From the NCBI GenBank assembly GCA_021831685.1, contig JAKBMG010000042.1, positions 1-33,683 of the forward strand: a DNA stretch of 33,683 nucleotides, in the 5' to 3' direction. Origin of the DNA: Bacteroidota bacterium (GTDB lineage: Bacteria; Bacteroidota; Ignavibacteria; Ignavibacteriales; Ignavibacteriaceae). Shown one piece after another: positions 2,818 through 30,406 of the stretch; the stretch's first letter is position 1; each line of letters begins with the position of its first letter. The notes below the pieces were generated by a model. It was not told where the DNA came from and ran no database searches. It saw only the letters and a program-made list of their open reading frames with translations. The translations under genes and the position numbers were made by a program.

Positions 2818-3144
2818 TTATAATCCTGGAATATTTAAACCGGGAGGCAGCATACCTTTAGTGACTTTAGCCATTTCCTCTTCAGCCAACTTATTAGCCG
2901 ATTGAAGTGCTTTGTTAACAGCCGCTACAACCAAATCTTCTAAAATTTCTTTCTCAGCTGGGATTATGACTTGTGGGTCAATTTCAACAGATAATAATTC
3001 TTTATTACCATTTGCGGTAGCTTTAATCATTCCACCGCCGGCTTCTTCGCTTACCGTTAAATTTCCAAGTTGGCTTTGAACCTTTTGCATTTCTTCCTGC
3101 ATTTTCTGAACTTGCTTCAACATCCCCTGCATGCCACCTTTCAT
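2818..3144 (-). CDS. ybaB: Nucleoid-associated protein, YbaB/EbfC family
   Basis: This 108-residue protein matches the YbaB/EbfC family in length and pattern. It has a Met/Gln/Lys-rich N-terminal helix (MLKQVQKMQEEMQKVQSQL), then a conserved strand segment with GGGMIKATANGNKELLSVEI and the family's I-x-P-x-E region (IDPQVIIPAEKEILEDLV). The family forms dimers that bind DNA non-specifically and is co-encoded with recR. It is the first gene of a minus-strand operon that continues through recR and the methyltransferase to ftsX. The region upstream (3145-3303) is the divergent promoter region shared with the PurC-like operon. Confidence 0.95.
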   Translation of the reverse strand: MKGGMQGMLKQVQKMQEEMQKVQSQLGNLTVSEEAGGGMIKATANGNKELLSVEIDPQVIIPAEKEILEDLVVAAVNKALQSANKLAEEEMAKVTKGMLPPGLNIPGL

Positions 3145-3221: not shown

Positions 3222-3249
3222 TTGACTTTTTATATCTATTTTTTATAAT
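3222..3249 (+). promoter_or_regulatory. Candidate sigma-70-type promoter for the PurC-like operon
   Basis: In the 159-bp divergent intergenic region there is TTGACT (3222-3227), a 16-bp spacer and TATAAT (3244-3249), reading towards the gene at 3304. The match to the general bacterial -35/-10 consensus is good, but Bacteroidota often use a different -33/-7 consensus and the region is very A+T-rich, so chance matches are easy. Confidence 0.4.
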
Positions 3250-3303
3250 TTCTCATTCATAATTTTTATTCAAGTTTAAAGTTTAACTTTTAACAGGAGA
3301 CTT

Positions 3304-3981
3304 ATGCAAGAAGAAATTGGAAAAAGGGAGATTCTTTTTGATGGTAATAACTATCAAATCCTTGAATACTCGGACTTTTTGCTAGTCAACGGCAATAAAA
3401 AGTTGAGGGTAAAAAAAATTGGTGAAAAATTTGCCTGGTTAAATTTATTTTTCCTTGATTTCTTGAAAGAGTACCACATCCCAGCAGCAATAGTAAAAAG
3501 CCATGAAAAAAACAGCCTTAAAGTTGTTAAACATGACAGATACCCATTTCATATTAAAATCTTAAATGTTATTGATAAAAGGACTTCCAAGATTTTTGCC
3601 AAAAAAGAAACTGAAATGCTTAACCTGCCGGTTTTTGAAATTCATTTTGGAGAAGGAAAAGACTCAGTTATTTCGGAGGGATATTTAATTAGCTTTGATT
3701 TATGTACGAACGAAGAATTAAAACATATTTATAGAATTTGCTCAAAAGTAAACGCTGTGCTAAAATCATTTTTCGAGCGTCGCGGATTTTTATTAGCTGA
3801 AGTGAATTGCTATTTTGGAAAATCTGAAGACAAAATTTTTCTTGTTGATGATTTTACATCACGAAGCATTAAATTCTTTTCAATGAATAAAGAGGATAGG
3901 TTAATTGATCCATTTAAGCTATCAACATCCGCAGAGATTAGGCATTACACAGACAAATTATTAAATATGACGAGTATTTAA
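3304..3981 (+). CDS. Degenerate SAICAR synthetase (PurC)-like protein
   Basis: This 225-residue protein aligns by eye along the whole length of PurC, the enzyme that joins aspartate to CAIR in purine synthesis. Matching blocks include the N-terminal G-K loop (here GKRE instead of GKAK), HIPAAIV against the usual GIPTH/Q region, the long helix with KVNAVLKSFFERRGFLLAEV, and VDDFTSRSIKFF against the DE-x-S-P-D-x-x-R block. Several residues normally conserved in PurC are changed: the VRN motif reads ILN, DFKLEFG reads AEVNCYFG, and the Pro-Asp and Arg of the last block are lost. It may therefore be an inactive or repurposed paralogue. ATG at 3304 follows CAGGAG at 3294-3299. It heads an operon, three bases before psd and upstream of purS and purQ. 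Annotators may simply call it purC or hypothetical. Confidence 0.65.
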   Translation: MQEEIGKREILFDGNNYQILEYSDFLLVNGNKKLRVKKIGEKFAWLNLFFLDFLKEYHIPAAIVKSHEKNSLKVVKHDRYPFHIKILNVIDKRTSKIFAKKETEMLNLPVFEIHFGEGKDSVISEGYLISFDLCTNEELKHIYRICSKVNAVLKSFFERRGFLLAEVNCYFGKSEDKIFLVDDFTSRSIKFFSMNKEDRLIDPFKLSTSAEIRHYTDKLLNMTSI

Positions 3982-3984
3982 AAG

Positions 3985-4641
3985 ATGTTTACTAAATATG
4001 GATATTCGACACTCGGCGCCATAGTAGGATTTTCTTTTTTACTTATTTCAATAAGTTTTCTTATTCATAATTCTTTTATAAAATTTTTTATTGTATTTTT
4101 ATCAATATTGCTTTTAGGTTTTTCTTTATACTTTTTTCGCGACCCGGATAGAAAAACACCGAAAAGGGATAACGTAATCATTTCCCCTGCAGACGGGAAA
4201 ATACTTTTGGTAAAGAATGTTTTTGACCACAAATTTATAAATGGTGAAGCAAAACAAATTTCTATTTTTATGTCTCCATTAAATGTTCATGTAAATAGAA
4301 TCCCGGTTGACGGGGAGGTTGTTTACATAAAATATTATTCCGGAAAATACTTAGCAGCTTTTGAAGACAAAGCTTCTGATGAAAATGAAAGAGCCGAGTT
4401 TGGTATTTCGACAAAACACGGTAGGATCTTATTTACCCAGGTTGCGGGATTTATTGCACGAAGAATCGTTTATAGTATTAAGACCGGCGAAAGTGTAAAA
4501 ATGGGAGAAAGATTTGGTATGATTAAATTTGGCAGCCGGGTTGATATCATAGCCCCCGCCTTTTGGGAAGCTAAGGTAATTCCCGGAGATAAAGTGAAAG
4601 CCGGAGAAACAATTTTATTTGAGCATACTTCAAATCAATGA
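3985..4641 (+). CDS. psd: Phosphatidylserine decarboxylase proenzyme
   Basis: The 218-residue product is the short form of Psd, which converts phosphatidylserine to phosphatidylethanolamine at the inner membrane. Two hydrophobic segments at about residues 9-29 and 31-51 anchor it. Conserved blocks follow: ISPADGKI (about 66-73), MSPLNVHVNR (96-105), and the self-cleavage site FGSR, where Gly183-Ser184 would be cut to form the pyruvoyl group on the new alpha chain. The C-terminal alpha chain continues VDIIAP. It lies three bases after the PurC-like gene and overlaps pssA by 4 bp (ATGA), so the two phospholipid enzymes acting in sequence are translationally coupled. Family assignment is firm. 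Confidence 0.96.
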   Translation: MFTKYGYSTLGAIVGFSFLLISISFLIHNSFIKFFIVFLSILLLGFSLYFFRDPDRKTPKRDNVIISPADGKILLVKNVFDHKFINGEAKQISIFMSPLNVHVNRIPVDGEVVYIKYYSGKYLAAFEDKASDENERAEFGISTKHGRILFTQVAGFIARRIVYSIKTGESVKMGERFGMIKFGSRVDIIAPAFWEAKVIPGDKVKAGETILFEHTSNQ

Positions 4642-5360
4642 AATCCCCAAGAAATACCCACTCCATTATTCCAAATCTTTTTACCGCAATGAATTTGTTT
4701 TGCGGTTATTACTCGATAATTAATACAAGCGAACAATCCTATATTTATGCATCATGGCTTATAATTATTGCAGCAGTTTTTGATGCTCTTGACGGTGTGG
4801 TAGCCCGCCTTACAAACTCAAGCAGCAAACTTGGTGTAGAGCTTGATTCTTTGGCCGATCTTCTAAGCTTTGGTGCGGCACCCGCTTTTTTAATTTTTAA
4901 GATTTTCCTATTTAATTATAATACGCTGGGAATTATAATTAGCTCTCTTTTAGTTCTTGCCGGGGGCTTCAGATTAGCAAGGTTTAATGTGCAGCTTGTC
5001 GGTTTCGATAAATCATTTTTCAAAGGATTACCTATTCCCTCCTCGGGAATAGCACTGGCTTCGTTCATTTTGATTTATTATGAACCACAGTTCGGTGGAT
5101 TTGCTGAACCTTATTCAAAGTTTATAATACCTATAGTCATACTACTTTCATTTTTAATGGTAAGCACAATTAAGTACGATACCCTTCCAAAGTTTACCTT
5201 TCAAGAAATCAGGAAAAAGCCTTACCACTTTGGATTCATCCTTATTTCCGTTATCCTTCTTGCCGTCACATCCGGAAAAGCTCTTTTCTTTATATTTGTT
5301 TTCATGATTCTATTTGGTATTTTTCGGCATATTTTTTACTTGTTTTCTAAGAAAAACTGA
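4638..5360 (+). CDS. pssA: CDP-diacylglycerol--serine O-phosphatidyltransferase
   Basis: This 240-residue, strongly hydrophobic protein carries the complete CDP-alcohol phosphatidyltransferase signature: Asp52-Gly53, Ala56-Arg57, Gly66, Asp70 and Asp74, in the spacing DG-x2-AR-x8-G-x3-D-x3-D. It makes phosphatidylserine from CDP-diacylglycerol and serine, the substrate for the Psd encoded just upstream. About six membrane helices are visible, and the N-terminal IPNLFTAMNLFCGYYSI segment is typical of the PssA subgroup rather than PgsA. It overlaps psd by 4 bp and is followed after 36 bp by purS. Together psd and pssA give the full route from CDP-diacylglycerol to phosphatidylethanolamine. Confidence 0.96.
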   Translation: MKSPRNTHSIIPNLFTAMNLFCGYYSIINTSEQSYIYASWLIIIAAVFDALDGVVARLTNSSSKLGVELDSLADLLSFGAAPAFLIFKIFLFNYNTLGIIISSLLVLAGGFRLARFNVQLVGFDKSFFKGLPIPSSGIALASFILIYYEPQFGGFAEPYSKFIIPIVILLSFLMVSTIKYDTLPKFTFQEIRKKPYHFGFILISVILLAVTSGKALFFIFVFMILFGIFRHIFYLFSKKN

Positions 5361-5396: not shown

Positions 5397-5648
5397 TTGT
5401 TCAAAGCAAAAGTATTAGTTAAAAGAAGACCGTCCATTTTGGATCCGCAAGGAATGGCAGTTGAAAAAGGCGCCAAACATCTTGGATTCAATAATATTAA
5501 AGAAACAAGAATCGGCAAGTATGTGGAATTTATTGTTGACACAGAGATTAGATCTTCAGCAGAGAAAGAAGTAACCGAATATTGTGACAAACTCCTCATC
5601 AATCCAAATTTAGAAGATTATGAATATACTTTGGAAGAGATTTTATGA
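5397..5648 (+). CDS. purS: Phosphoribosylformylglycinamidine synthase subunit PurS
   Basis: At 83 residues this is the usual length for PurS, the small subunit that holds PurL and PurQ together in the three-part FGAM synthase (fourth step of purine synthesis). The sequence [20 protein letters not shown], then LGF and VEFIVDT, is characteristic. The start is the TTG at 5397, placed 7-8 bp after AGGA, and no usable ATG lies nearby. It overlaps purQ by 4 bp (ATGA), which fits the fixed stoichiometry of the complex. The third subunit, purL, is not in the window. Confidence 0.95.
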
Positions 5649-6343
5649 AGCCGAAGTTCGGAGTAGTCGTTTTTCCAGGCTCTAATTGTGATCATGATGC
5701 ATATTATGCATTGAAAAAAATTCTCGGTCTTGATGTAACTTTTTTATGGCACAAAGATACTAATCTACAAGATTGTGATGTGATAGTATTACCTGGCGGA
5801 TTTTCTTACGGTGACTACCTGCGCACCGGTGCAATTGCCCGTTTCTCCCCTATTATGAATTCCGTAATTAATTTCTCCCAAAAAGGCGGTCACATAATAG
5901 GTATTTGCAATGGGTTTCAGATATTGCTTGAAGCACAATTGTTACCGGGCGTTTTGCTGAAAAATAAATCGCTTCAATTTGTATGCAAAGATGTTTATCT
6001 TTCAGTAGAAAATAATGAGACCTTTTTCACCAAAGGATTAGTTAAAAGTAAGCCTTTGAAAATTCCAATTGCTCACGGTGAAGGAAATTACTTTGCGGAT
6101 AGCGATACTTTGAAATCTTTAGTTAAGAATAATCAAATAGTATTTAAGTACACTTCAAGCGATGGAAAGTCCGATGATGAATCAAATCCAAACGGCTCTA
6201 TGATGAATATAGCCGGCATTGTGAACAAAGGAGGAAATATTTTAGGAATGATGCCGCATCCGGAAAGAGCCTGCAATCCTGTCTTAGGTAAGAACGACGG
6301 CAGTTTGGTATTAGGTGCAATTGTAAAAAATTTTATGAATTAA
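5645..6343 (+). CDS. purQ: Phosphoribosylformylglycinamidine synthase subunit PurQ (glutaminase)
   Basis: PurQ is the class I glutamine amidotransferase that supplies ammonia to PurL. The 232-residue product has the expected catalytic triad: Cys88 in GICNGFQ, and His205 and Glu207 in MPHPERA. It also has the family's N-terminal FPGSNCDHD and the oxyanion-strand segment [18 protein letters not shown]. Length is normal for a free-standing PurQ that partners a separate small PurL. It is coupled to purS by a 4-bp overlap and is followed 15 bp later by the first tatA gene. Confidence 0.97.
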
Positions 6344-9599: not shown

Positions 9600-10880
<1,281 letters not shown>

Positions 10881-27800: not shown

Positions 27801-27889
27801 TGAGATTTGCATTTAAAATTATTGACTAACTTTTGCTAGGCAGTACTGAATTTAATCAAATTCTTAGAAAATCAATTTTAGAAATCTTT

Positions 27890-30406
27890 ATGAAAATACA
27901 TAGCACTTCGGTCAGCATTATATTTATTTTACTGATAAATTTTTCAGCATCCAATTTTGTTCAAGCTCAGCCAAAACCGGTGATGAATTCTGGCGAATTG
28001 CAGCTAGCGCTTAAAAAATTAAATGTGCTTGGCAGCGTATTGTATATTGCAGCTCACCCTGACGATGAAAACAATGCTTTACTGGCTTATTTTGCAAAAG
28101 GAAAACTTCTCCGAACAGGTTACCTTTCTTTGACTCGCGGCGACGGGGGACAAAATCTAATCGGGACAGAACAAGGTGATTTGCTTGGAGTTCTTCGTAC
28201 GCAGGAGCTTTTACAGGCGCGTAAGATTGACGGTGCCAAACAATATTTTTCTCGCGCTGTTGATTTCGGATTCTCTAAATCAGCGAAAGAAACTTTAGAC
28301 TTTTGGGGAAAGGAAAAAATTCTATCAGATGTTGTCTGGGTTATTAGAAAATTCAAACCGGATATAATCATTACAAGATTTCAAGGAACTAAGGCTGATG
28401 GACACGGCAATCATACCGCATCCGAAATACTTGCAGCAGAGGCATTCAAATTATCAGGTGATTCTACAAAATTTCCTGAACAATTAAAATACATAAAGCC
28501 CTGGCAGGCTAAAAAAATTCTTTGGAATGCCTGGCTTCCGTTACTTGAAAAACGTAAAACCGATCTTTCAAAATTATTAAAGGTTGACGTAGGCGGTTAT
28601 AATCCTTTGCTTGGGAAATCTTATACTGAAATTGCGGCTGAAAGCAGAAGTATGCATAAAACGCAAGGTTTTGGATCTAGCAGTAGTTTTGGAGAAGCAA
28701 TAAATTATTTTGTCCCGATAGCCGGTTCCCCTGCTGTTAATAACATCTTTGAAGGAATTGATATGAGCTGGAATCGTATCAAAGGGGGTGAAAAAATCGG
28801 GAAATTGATTTCTGAGGCAAACGAAGAATTTCGCCCGGGAAATCCCTCCGCAATTATACCTGTTCTTCTAAAGGCTTACACCGAAATGAAGACGATTGAT
28901 AATGATTATTGGGTAAAAGAAAAGGAAAAGGAATTAGTTGAAGTTATTCGTTCATGCGCTGGAATTTTTGTAGAAGCAGATGCCTCAGATTATACTGTTT
29001 CTCCCGGTGATAAAATCAATGTTGCTTCATCGATCATAAACCGTTCAAATTTCCCTTTTATATTAGAGAGAGTGGAGGTAACTGATCAAGAAAAAAGTAT
29101 GGATGAGAATTCCGAATTGAAAAATGAAAAATTAGTTCCGGTAGACTTAACGTGCAAACTTCCGGTGGATGCTGAATATTCACAACCATATTGGTTGAGA
29201 AAAGAACATACCATTGGGGATTATGAAGTGGATGATCAGAGGTTAATCGGAAAAGCGGAGAATGATCCCCCTCTCTTAGCAGAATTTTTTGTAAAAGCCG
29301 GCAATGAAGAATTAATTTTCAAAACTCCAGTTCAGTACAAATGGACTGACCCAGTTAAGGGAGAAGAGTTTAGGCCTCTTGTAATTGCTCCGAAAGTATT
29401 AATAAATTTAAAGGATAAAGTTTATCTTTTCCCAACTTCAAATGAAAGGAAGGTTTCATTTATACTTAAAAGCAGTGAAGATAATTTAACAGGCATATTC
29501 AAAATAAATGTACCGAAGGGGTGGAATGTTGAGCCAGATCAAAAATCTTTCACTTTTAAGAAAAAGTATGACGAGCAAATTTTTAACTTTCAAGTAACTC
29601 CACCAGATCACTTTTCAGAAGGCTATTTAACTGCCGAAGCAATTACCGGGAATAAATCATATTCATTGGGTGAATCAATAATAAATTATTCTCACATTCA
29701 GCGTCAGACTGTATTCTATCCATCGAAAGCAAAGATTATACGGTTAGATTTGAAAAAGGTAATTAATAATATTGGTTACATCATGGGCCCTGGTGACGAA
29801 GTTCCACAAATACTTAAGGAACTTGGTTATGACGTAACCATGCTAACCGAAAATGATTTAGAGACAAAAAATCTCAGCGGTTTTGATGCAATTGTAACAG
29901 GAATACGATTGTATAATACCGATAAGCAAATATCCTTTGAACAACCTAAGCTTTTAAGATATGTAGAGAACGGCGGAACTTTAGTGGTTCAATACAATAA
30001 ATTTTTTGATTTAGTAACTGATAAAATCGGACCTTATCCTTTTCACATTTCGAATGACAGGGTAACGGATGAAAATTCTAAAGTCACTTTTTTAGATAAG
30101 GGTAGTCCAATTCTTAATTTCCCTAATAAAATTACCGAAAATAATTTTAAGGGCTGGATTCAGGAACGCGGGTTATATTTTGCAGATAACTGGGATAAAA
30201 ATTATACCACAGTAATCACTTGTCATGATCCTGAAGAGACACCTAAGGACGGCGGAATTCTATTTACTCATTACGGCAAGGGAGTTTTTATCTATACGGG
30301 TTACGATTGGTTTAGAGAACTTCCAGGCGGCGTGTCAGGTTCTTATCCTATATTTGTTAATATGATTTCTGCCGGAAAATTTTATCATAGACAGCAACCT
30401 AAATGA
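27890..30406 (+). CDS. Exported PIG-L (LmbE-like) deacetylase with long C-terminal region
   Basis: The frame is open from TTG 27833, but the ATG at 27890 starts a clean signal peptide (VSIIFILLINFSASNFVQAQ), giving 838 residues. The PIG-L/LmbE deacetylase domain fills the first 300 or so: AAHPDDE (residues 54-60), LTRGDGGQN (81-89) and GHGNHTASE (171-179), the zinc ligands being His56, Asp59 and His175. The rest includes beta-rich segments and a late FDAIVTGIRLYNTD domain similar to ThuA/class I GATase-like folds (about 690-838). This class probably removes acetyl groups from exported glycans or glycolipids. It overlaps the next gene by 4 bp. It is not a bacillithiol BshB, which is small and cytosolic. 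Confidence 0.82.
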   Translation: MKIHSTSVSIIFILLINFSASNFVQAQPKPVMNSGELQLALKKLNVLGSVLYIAAHPDDENNALLAYFAKGKLLRTGYLSLTRGDGGQNLIGTEQGDLLGVLRTQELLQARKIDGAKQYFSRAVDFGFSKSAKETLDFWGKEKILSDVVWVIRKFKPDIIITRFQGTKADGHGNHTASEILAAEAFKLSGDSTKFPEQLKYIKPWQAKKILWNAWLPLLEKRKTDLSKLLKVDVGGYNPLLGKSYTEIAAESRSMHKTQGFGSSSSFGEAINYFVPIAGSPAVNNIFEGIDMSWNRIKGGEKIGKLISEANEEFRPGNPSAIIPVLLKAYTEMKTIDNDYWVKEKEKELVEVIRSCAGIFVEADASDYTVSPGDKINVASSIINRSNFPFILERVEVTDQEKSMDENSELKNEKLVPVDLTCKLPVDAEYSQPYWLRKEHTIGDYEVDDQRLIGKAENDPPLLAEFFVKAGNEELIFKTPVQYKWTDPVKGEEFRPLVIAPKVLINLKDKVYLFPTSNERKVSFILKSSEDNLTGIFKINVPKGWNVEPDQKSFTFKKKYDEQIFNFQVTPPDHFSEGYLTAEAITGNKSYSLGESIINYSHIQRQTVFYPSKAKIIRLDLKKVINNIGYIMGPGDEVPQILKELGYDVTMLTENDLETKNLSGFDAIVTGIRLYNTDKQISFEQPKLLRYVENGGTLVVQYNKFFDLVTDKIGPYPFHISNDRVTDENSKVTFLDKGSPILNFPNKITENNFKGWIQERGLYFADNWDKNYTTVITCHDPEETPKDGGILFTHYGKGVFIYTGYDWFRELPGGVSGSYPIFVNMISAGKFYHRQQPK

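Follow-up and report, generated by a model that had tools for sequence, protein, structure and literature searches.

A probably displaced short-form PurC homologue in the slot upstream of psd in an Ignavibacteriaceae genome and its relatives, a predicted pseudoenzyme with a new helix signature

The window (the whole stretch of DNA analysed, 33,683 nucleotides) encodes a protein that resembles SAICAR synthetase (PurC) and has lost signature residues of that enzyme. The question raised by this locus is whether the protein is a diverged enzyme, a pseudoenzyme or a protein with a new activity, the three readings proposed when the sequence was first inspected. The open reading frame, here called purCL, was located at 3304-3981 (+) behind an AGGAG box at 3295-3299. 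It encodes 225 aa and was annotated as a displaced short-form PurC homologue and predicted pseudoenzyme on the evidence of PF01259, an AlphaFold2 model, VIA-align and omega values.

The whole-length likeness to SAICAR synthetase that the sequence-only reading had described was borne out. The Pfam family PF01259 (SAICAR_synt) spanned residues 6-196 with 62.2 bits (cut-off 20) and an E value of 8e-17, a match far above chance. The AlphaFold2 model, built with 30 orthologues in the alignment, had a pLDDT of 88.2 and a pTM of 0.86. VIA-align of the model with 3nua and E. coli 2gqr showed a Z score of 26.4 with 223 residues aligned at an rmsd of 2.7, and its best 31 rows were SAICAR synthetases or PAICS, as were all 38 Foldseek matches at E ≤ 0.001. 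The structure prediction, suggested earlier as a check, thus resembled PurC. By predicted fold and ancestry, purCL is a member of the PF01259 superfamily, for which it passed both the Pfam gathering score and the comparison of predicted folds. As a PurC, it failed by score (37.8 bits against the cut-off of 189.9 for the equivalog TIGR00081) and also by ligand residues. No Rfam family reached its gathering score anywhere in the window, and matches to VapD, TrkA and Lys-tRNA ligase were discarded as near noise.

For the ligand residues, the excerpt of PMC3261824 lists K11, K13, R94, S100, D175, E179, R199 and R215 of E. coli PurC, and that of PMC9376930 lists E97 and D137 as Mg ligands of the human enzyme with K17, K19, K131, K191, D207, D212, K228 and R232 as further ligand residues. 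After transfer to E. coli numbering by our own mapping, 15 positions were scored: K11, K13, E90, R94, S100, K123, D129, D175, K177, E179, D191, D196, R199, K211 and R215. The protein groups were defined by family and gene content, independently of the helix described below, and the 43 proteins of families f1 and f3 were divided by eye into 34 window-type and 9 fast-evolving orthologues. Canonical proteins (n = 22) kept 14-15 of the 15 residues, intermediates (n = 24) kept 1-9 with a median of 5, window-type proteins (n = 34) kept 0-4 with a median of 3 and fast-evolving orthologues (n = 9) kept 0-2.

The three altered blocks named in the sequence-only reading were found as described and were altered throughout the orthologous family. 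At I86-L87-N88 (3559-3567, +), the site of V-R94-N in PurC, the motif V-V-R-N has become K-I-L-N; the Asn is kept and the CAIR-contacting Arg, present in 22/22 canonical and 0/34 window-type proteins, is replaced by L87. At E166-G172 (3799-3819, +), the site of D175-F-K177-L-E179-F-G, purCL reads E-V-N-C-Y-F-G, and D175, K177 and E179 were kept in 0, 2 and 0 of the 34 window-type proteins. At D182-K190 (3847-3873, +), the site of D191-E-x-S-P-D196-x-x-R199, DEISPDTCR has become DDFTSRSIK with P195, D196 and R199 replaced by S, R and K; D191 was kept in 25/34, D196 and R199 in none. The Pro of this block was retained in 30 of the 34 and was Ser in four (the window, L004, L005 and L090), L004 and L005 being the two closest relatives of the window protein.

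Overall, none of the 34 window-type proteins kept E90 (the counterpart of human E97, a Mg ligand), R94, S100, K123, D175, E179, D196 or R199. K11 was present in 22/22 canonical, 0/24 intermediate and 2/34 window-type proteins, in an N-terminal alignment that is less sure than the rest. K13 (20/34), D129 (23/34) and D191 (25/34) were still present in many orthologues, so that purCL may still bind nucleotides weakly; D191 was absent from all nine fast orthologues, all of which kept the helix. Several replacements were themselves conserved in window-type proteins: G99 to K92 and S100 to R93 (31/34 each), and D175 to E166 and R199 to K190 (33/34 each). A set of 14 canonical proteins shares 66 invariant columns; 43 of these were kept by at most three of the 34 and 11 by at least 31.

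A canonical purC elsewhere in the genome, another check that had been suggested, was present. A PF01259 search of the 4.5-Mb assembly returned two genes, purCL (61 bits) and a long-form PurC of 298 aa on contig C30 (256 bits). The latter scored 413 bits with NF010568 (cut-off 251) and 251.5 bits with TIGR00081 (cut-off 189.9), and is presumably the working SAICAR synthetase of this genome. On C30 (locus L001) the long-form gene is followed by a short DUF971-like ORF and then by genes which we take to be pgsA and pgpA; if this naming holds, the presumed working purC also adjoins phospholipid genes. The long-form loci examined had no psd in their 1.5-kb flanks. Separately, the purH match of the same genome (G000:C114:14533-16058) was split into two parts that lie in different frames with about 5 bases between them, which may reflect a frameshift or an assembly error.

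Among 59 genomes surveyed, own genome included, a canonical purC (E below 1e-40) was found in 56 and was absent from G006, G016 and G034. purCL was found in 39 of the 59, with 34/37 in f1 (the family of the window's own genome), 5/5 in f3 and 0/17 in f2. Matches to named records place the group in the Ignavibacteria; one of them is a copy with 58% identity in Ignavibacteria bacterium GWC2_36_12. Genomes G016 and G033 (76% and 87% complete) had neither purCL nor a psd match, so the missing gene is probably an assembly gap in both, and G018 (98% complete, psd present) has lost purCL. The role of purCL is dispensable, since f2 (17/17), G018 and many long-form-only families manage without the gene.

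The presence of a canonical purC elsewhere, the PurC fold and the family-wide altered residues make a pseudoenzyme or a new activity likelier than a working SAICAR synthetase, and of the readings first proposed only this part stood. A diverged isoenzyme that still works under special conditions would agree with the intact predicted fold and with the D191, D129 and K13 kept in most orthologues. However, it would have to work with eight ligand residues kept in 0/34 proteins beside a canonical enzyme in 56/59 relatives, and purCL was kept in two genomes without detected purL and purD. An isoenzyme is therefore extremely unlikely.

The neighbourhood of purCL was as first described, with Pfam matches to all four downstream genes on the same strand. 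psd (phosphatidylserine decarboxylase, 3985-4641, +, PF02666 with 159.7 bits) starts 3 nt after the purCL stop and is followed by pssA (CDP-alcohol phosphatidyltransferase, 4638-5360, +, PF01066 with 75.2 bits), purS (5397-5648, +, PF02700) and purQ (5645-6343, +, PF13507, assigned by the purS neighbour). The product of pssA is presumably CDP-diacylglycerol-serine synthase, the substrate being taken from the psd neighbour. On the other side are the divergent ybaB (2818-3144, −, PF02575, conserved in the syntenic block) and recR (2220-2816, −, PF13662 and RecR models). A sigma-70-like site, TTGACT-16-TATAAT, lies before purCL at 3222-3249 (+) with 11/12 matches; this is weak evidence, as the promoter scan was not above shuffles (13 sites in the region against a shuffle mean of 14.7), and neither was the terminator scan of the region. 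Elsewhere in the window, purA (adenylosuccinate synthetase, 9609-10880, PF00709 with 625 bits) follows purQ at a distance of about 3 kb. In an 857-aa protein at 27833-30406, residues 70-204 match a PIG-L type de-N-acetylase domain, and the long remainder had no Pfam match at E 1e-4.

This arrangement was conserved. purCL was directly upstream of psd and then pssA in all 41 fetched f1/f3 regions, with recR and/or ybaB divergent on the other side wherever the contig reached. The distance from the purCL stop to the first psd start was −11 to +9 nt in 40/41 regions and 98 nt in L093. purS and purQ usually followed pssA and were missing from regions L076 (G034), L093 (G023) and L118 (G199). In the 17/17 f2 regions and G018, recR-ybaB-psd-pssA was intact with about 110-265 nt between the ybaB and psd matches, and no PurC-like match was found in this interval.

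The same slot was occupied by ordinary enzymes in related families, where the single PF01259 gene was a fully canonical short PurC, often immediately upstream of psd-pssA. Such genes were found in f16 (L109, L110, L240), f13 (L111, L229, L238), f15 (L231, L236, L237, L245, L257) and f20 (L113, L123). Exceptions in f13 were G248, with purC 3.6 kb from psd (L112), and G396, with no PurC in the fetched region L234; no psd was found in the six regions fetched around purC in f23, f25, f26 and f38. The psd/pur neighbourhood and the tight spacing are therefore inherited and by themselves no sign of new function, and the psd coupling says little about the partner of purCL. The neighbourhood had first been read as an unusual link that might indicate a different acid or nucleotide substrate. 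The canonical single-copy PurCs in the same slot remove this argument, and no positive evidence for such a substrate was found, most of the Mg and ATP ligands also being gone.

Intermediate states were found in the class. A long form together with a partly degenerate psd-slot copy was present in f8, f14, f19, f57, f58, f59 and one f54 genome. In the f5 genome G522, the degenerate psd-slot copy was accompanied by no more than a short piece resembling the beginning of another PurC, and this was the sole intermediate without a full second PurC. All 24 intermediates were on the psd strand with psd next, and 23 of them ended 6-21 nt before the aligned psd start (256 nt in L264, which has a late psd match). 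In many families of the class the long form was present and psd was preceded by nothing that resembles PurC, and no PurC-like gene was found before psd-pssA in many class genomes, e.g., in f4, f5, f6, f7, f10, f11 and f54. Left out of the intermediates were L196 (f55, G378), L197 (f4, G478) and the f15 proteins L184-L190. L196 and L197 are second PurC-like proteins of about 278 aa with no psd beside them, a long-form PurC also present and unusual motifs such as TWRNNATGSFWRRYP. L184-L190 (G222, G427, G462, G468, G490, G493 and G515) are low-scoring proteins of 320-351 aa and the only PF01259 match of their genomes; they look like another PurC subtype, and purL was present in all five of the f15 genomes tested (G222, G468, G490, G493 and G515).

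A maximum-likelihood tree of 76 selected proteins placed the long forms on one side of a 100/100 branch and the intermediates together with purCL on one side of a 100/99 branch. purCL formed one group (100/97) with the f57 copy adjoining at 100/99. The branch leading to the long forms is very long (2.9), as are several purCL rows; the root and the finer placements are accordingly uncertain, and long-branch effects may be present. In the simplest history, the long form would have arrived in an ancestor of much of the class, after which the old copy would have been converted in some families and lost in others.

A gain was found beside the losses. Residues 140-160 (3721-3783, +), located by sequence comparison and covered by a model helix at 136-158, carry the newly fixed residues K140, R144, K148, S155, E158, R159 and R160. 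R or K at 144, K148, R159 and R160 were present in all 67 displaced proteins (24 intermediates, 34 window-type and 9 fast), position 140 was K or R in 62/67 and position 158 was E in 56/67. In canonical proteins, R159 and R160 occurred together in 0/22 and E158 in 0/22, and single residues of the signature were found in some (K148 in 13/22, R160 in 16/22, R or K at 144 in 5/22). The signature was invariant in the fastest orthologues too (9/9). Helical periodicity would place residues 140, 144, 148, 151, 155 and 158-159 on one face. The least degenerate intermediates, with 8-9 of the 15 ligands kept, already carried the complete signature, so the helix change was probably early and probably preceded the full loss of the active site. 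The signature may be a single event on one branch, in which case only its maintenance shows constraint.

Conserved new residues could also mean a PurC-derived enzyme with a new substrate, e.g., an ATP-dependent ligase or kinase in phospholipid head-group chemistry. Inositol-phosphate kinases and lipid kinases are related in fold to the SAICAR-synthase-like proteins. The nearly invariant K92, R93, E166 and K190 in the old pocket would suit such an enzyme, and Foldseek gave weak matches to inositol pyrophosphate kinases (E ~1e-3, TM 0.31); no inositol-phosphate kinase was among the best 50 VIA-align rows, which excludes nothing. However, the ATP/Mg ligands E90, K123, E179 and K11 were kept in 0, 0, 0 and 2 of 34 proteins, no new set of catalytic carboxylates was evident, and the fast orthologues that keep the helix have all lost D191. 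A new catalytic activity is thus considered unlikely.

The purCL protein was found to be under purifying selection. In five pairs with dS 0.7-1.75, omega was 0.039-0.077 for purCL and 0.048-0.123 for psd; four of the nine pairs were set aside, one because its members were too similar (dS 0.05, omega 0.126) and three because dS was saturated or infinite. These values indicate that purCL is not a pseudogene. With a homologous predicted fold, catalytic residues gone across orthologues and purifying selection, purCL fits the description of a PurC-derived pseudoenzyme as far as its sequences tell. The near-constant spacing to psd in 40/41 regions would also be expected if purCL were only a translational leader, kept for coupled translation of psd with a protein that has no role. 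Such a leader is very improbable, as protein-level selection was about as strong as on psd and the helix signature did not vary even in the fastest orthologues.

Two f1 genomes, G034 (96% complete) and G199 (99%), are informative on the relation of purCL to purine synthesis. Neither had a purL match, which the other 13 of 15 genomes tested had, nor a purD above cut-off (8 of the other 9 have PurD, and G014 a partial match), nor a canonical purC. For purH, G199 gave no match, and the match in G034 was full-length but scored below the curated cut-off. Both genomes retained purCL-psd-pssA, with no purS or purQ in that operon, and purCL is therefore maintained there without an evident de novo purine pathway or a long-form PurC partner. 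The role of purCL seems to lie outside purine synthesis. The PurC origin and the purS and purQ that come next in most regions would agree with a regulator or subunit of the purine pathway, e.g., one that pairs with the long-form PurC or with PurS/PurQ, but retention in these two genomes, which lack canonical purC, purL, purD and the operon purS/purQ, renders this improbable.

Co-evolution of purCL with its phospholipid neighbours was not supported. In the 18 regions without purCL (f2 and G018), 15/89 conserved PssA positions were changed, compared with 1/87 in psd, 3/99 in recR, 1/116 in purQ and 0/241 in gatA. The PssA loop 'NVQLVGF' looked fully or almost fully preserved in those slow regions of f1, f3 and the outgroups that were inspected, and degenerate in f2, in G018 and in several of the fast genomes with purCL. 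In a control of 76 further pssA regions, the strict pattern QL[VI]G[FY] was present in 16/20 regions with a PurC-like gene and 25/56 without, nine of these 56 being short and possibly cut on the upstream side. The PssA result was not taken as evidence of co-evolution, as the loop was independent of purCL in the control and the excess was confounded with phylogeny. As a separate observation, the loop 'RLARFNVQLVGFDK' at about residues 113-125 of PssA (4638-5360) was conserved in many class members (L201-L276 examined) and changed in f2, G018 and the f6, f7, f9 and f11 genomes looked at. Evolutionary rate covariation (partial Spearman) was 0.60 for purCL-pssA and 0.54 for purCL-psd in 32 genomes, 0.39 and 0.25 with an eight-gene set in 30 genomes, and 0.24 and 0.45 in 25 genomes without fast lineages. 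It was not robust to the choice of gene set or lineages and was set aside as well.

Taken as a whole, purCL is probably a displaced PurC that has turned into a non-catalytic binding protein. An ancestral short-form purC, vertically inherited in a purC-psd-pssA-purS-purQ operon, would have been the starting point. The second, long-form PurC (the 298-aa type on C30) would then have taken over SAICAR synthesis, and the old copy would have kept its fold while most of the residues that bind Mg2+, ATP, CAIR and aspartate disappeared. It would also have fixed the helix signature, mostly on one face. We infer that purCL is now inactive as an enzyme and most probably binds an anionic ligand or a partner via the helix, with the re-made, Lys/Arg-lined former CAIR site (K92, R93, K190, K205) sharing in the binding. 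The data support the 140-160 helix as the working surface, probably joined by the re-made basic pocket.

It is plausible, at clearly less than an even chance, that purCL has Psd, PssA or the phosphatidylserine/ethanolamine step as its partner. Retention of purCL with psd-pssA where purS/purQ are gone favours this branch, but the linkage is also inherited. A fuller proposal is still a little more tentative: purCL may be devoted to phosphatidylserine/phosphatidylethanolamine synthesis as a non-catalytic partner or regulator that acts via the new basic helix face and is translated in step with psd, its stages preserved in eight families and its helix fixed before full loss of the active site.

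Displacement of an enzyme is normally visible only as an end state. Here a graded series survives in the old operon, from intact through half-dismantled, window-type and fast-decaying to cleanly lost copies. It offers a natural experiment on the passage from enzyme to non-enzyme with a concrete structural prediction, a signature complete at up to 9/15 ligands. The locus is also a warning for annotation. With a match to the PurC Pfam family and with pur genes as neighbours, purCL genes could be labelled purC by mistake, which in G034 and G199 would hide an apparent purine auxotrophy. In the open-licence literature, no such PurC lineage was described among the matches listed, judged by titles and the starts of abstracts, and no paper joining SAICAR with pseudoenzyme was found.

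Among known systems, the closest is short-form PurC (TIGR00081, PF01259; E. coli, Clostridium and Pyrococcus structures), with which purCL shares the whole-length predicted fold, the ancestral gene position and residues that include N95, H136 and F180-G181. It differs in that most ATP, Mg, CAIR and aspartate ligands are replaced and the helix signature is new. The long-form PurC of the same genome (NF010568/PRK13961 type) belongs to the same superfamily, but differs in its NF010568 score of 413 bits, its separate 100/100 branch and the lack of psd in the examined 1.5-kb flanks. Additional purC-like genes of archaea (Thermococci, Methanosarcina and others) are comparable in that, as with purCL, a second PurC-like gene of doubted activity stands beside another. 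In the excerpt of PMC3261824, these archaeal cases are a truncated copy, a split gene, a recent duplication and a suspected transfer; unlike the cases described there, purCL forms a conserved lineage, kept in synteny, in which ligand residues were lost by degrees.
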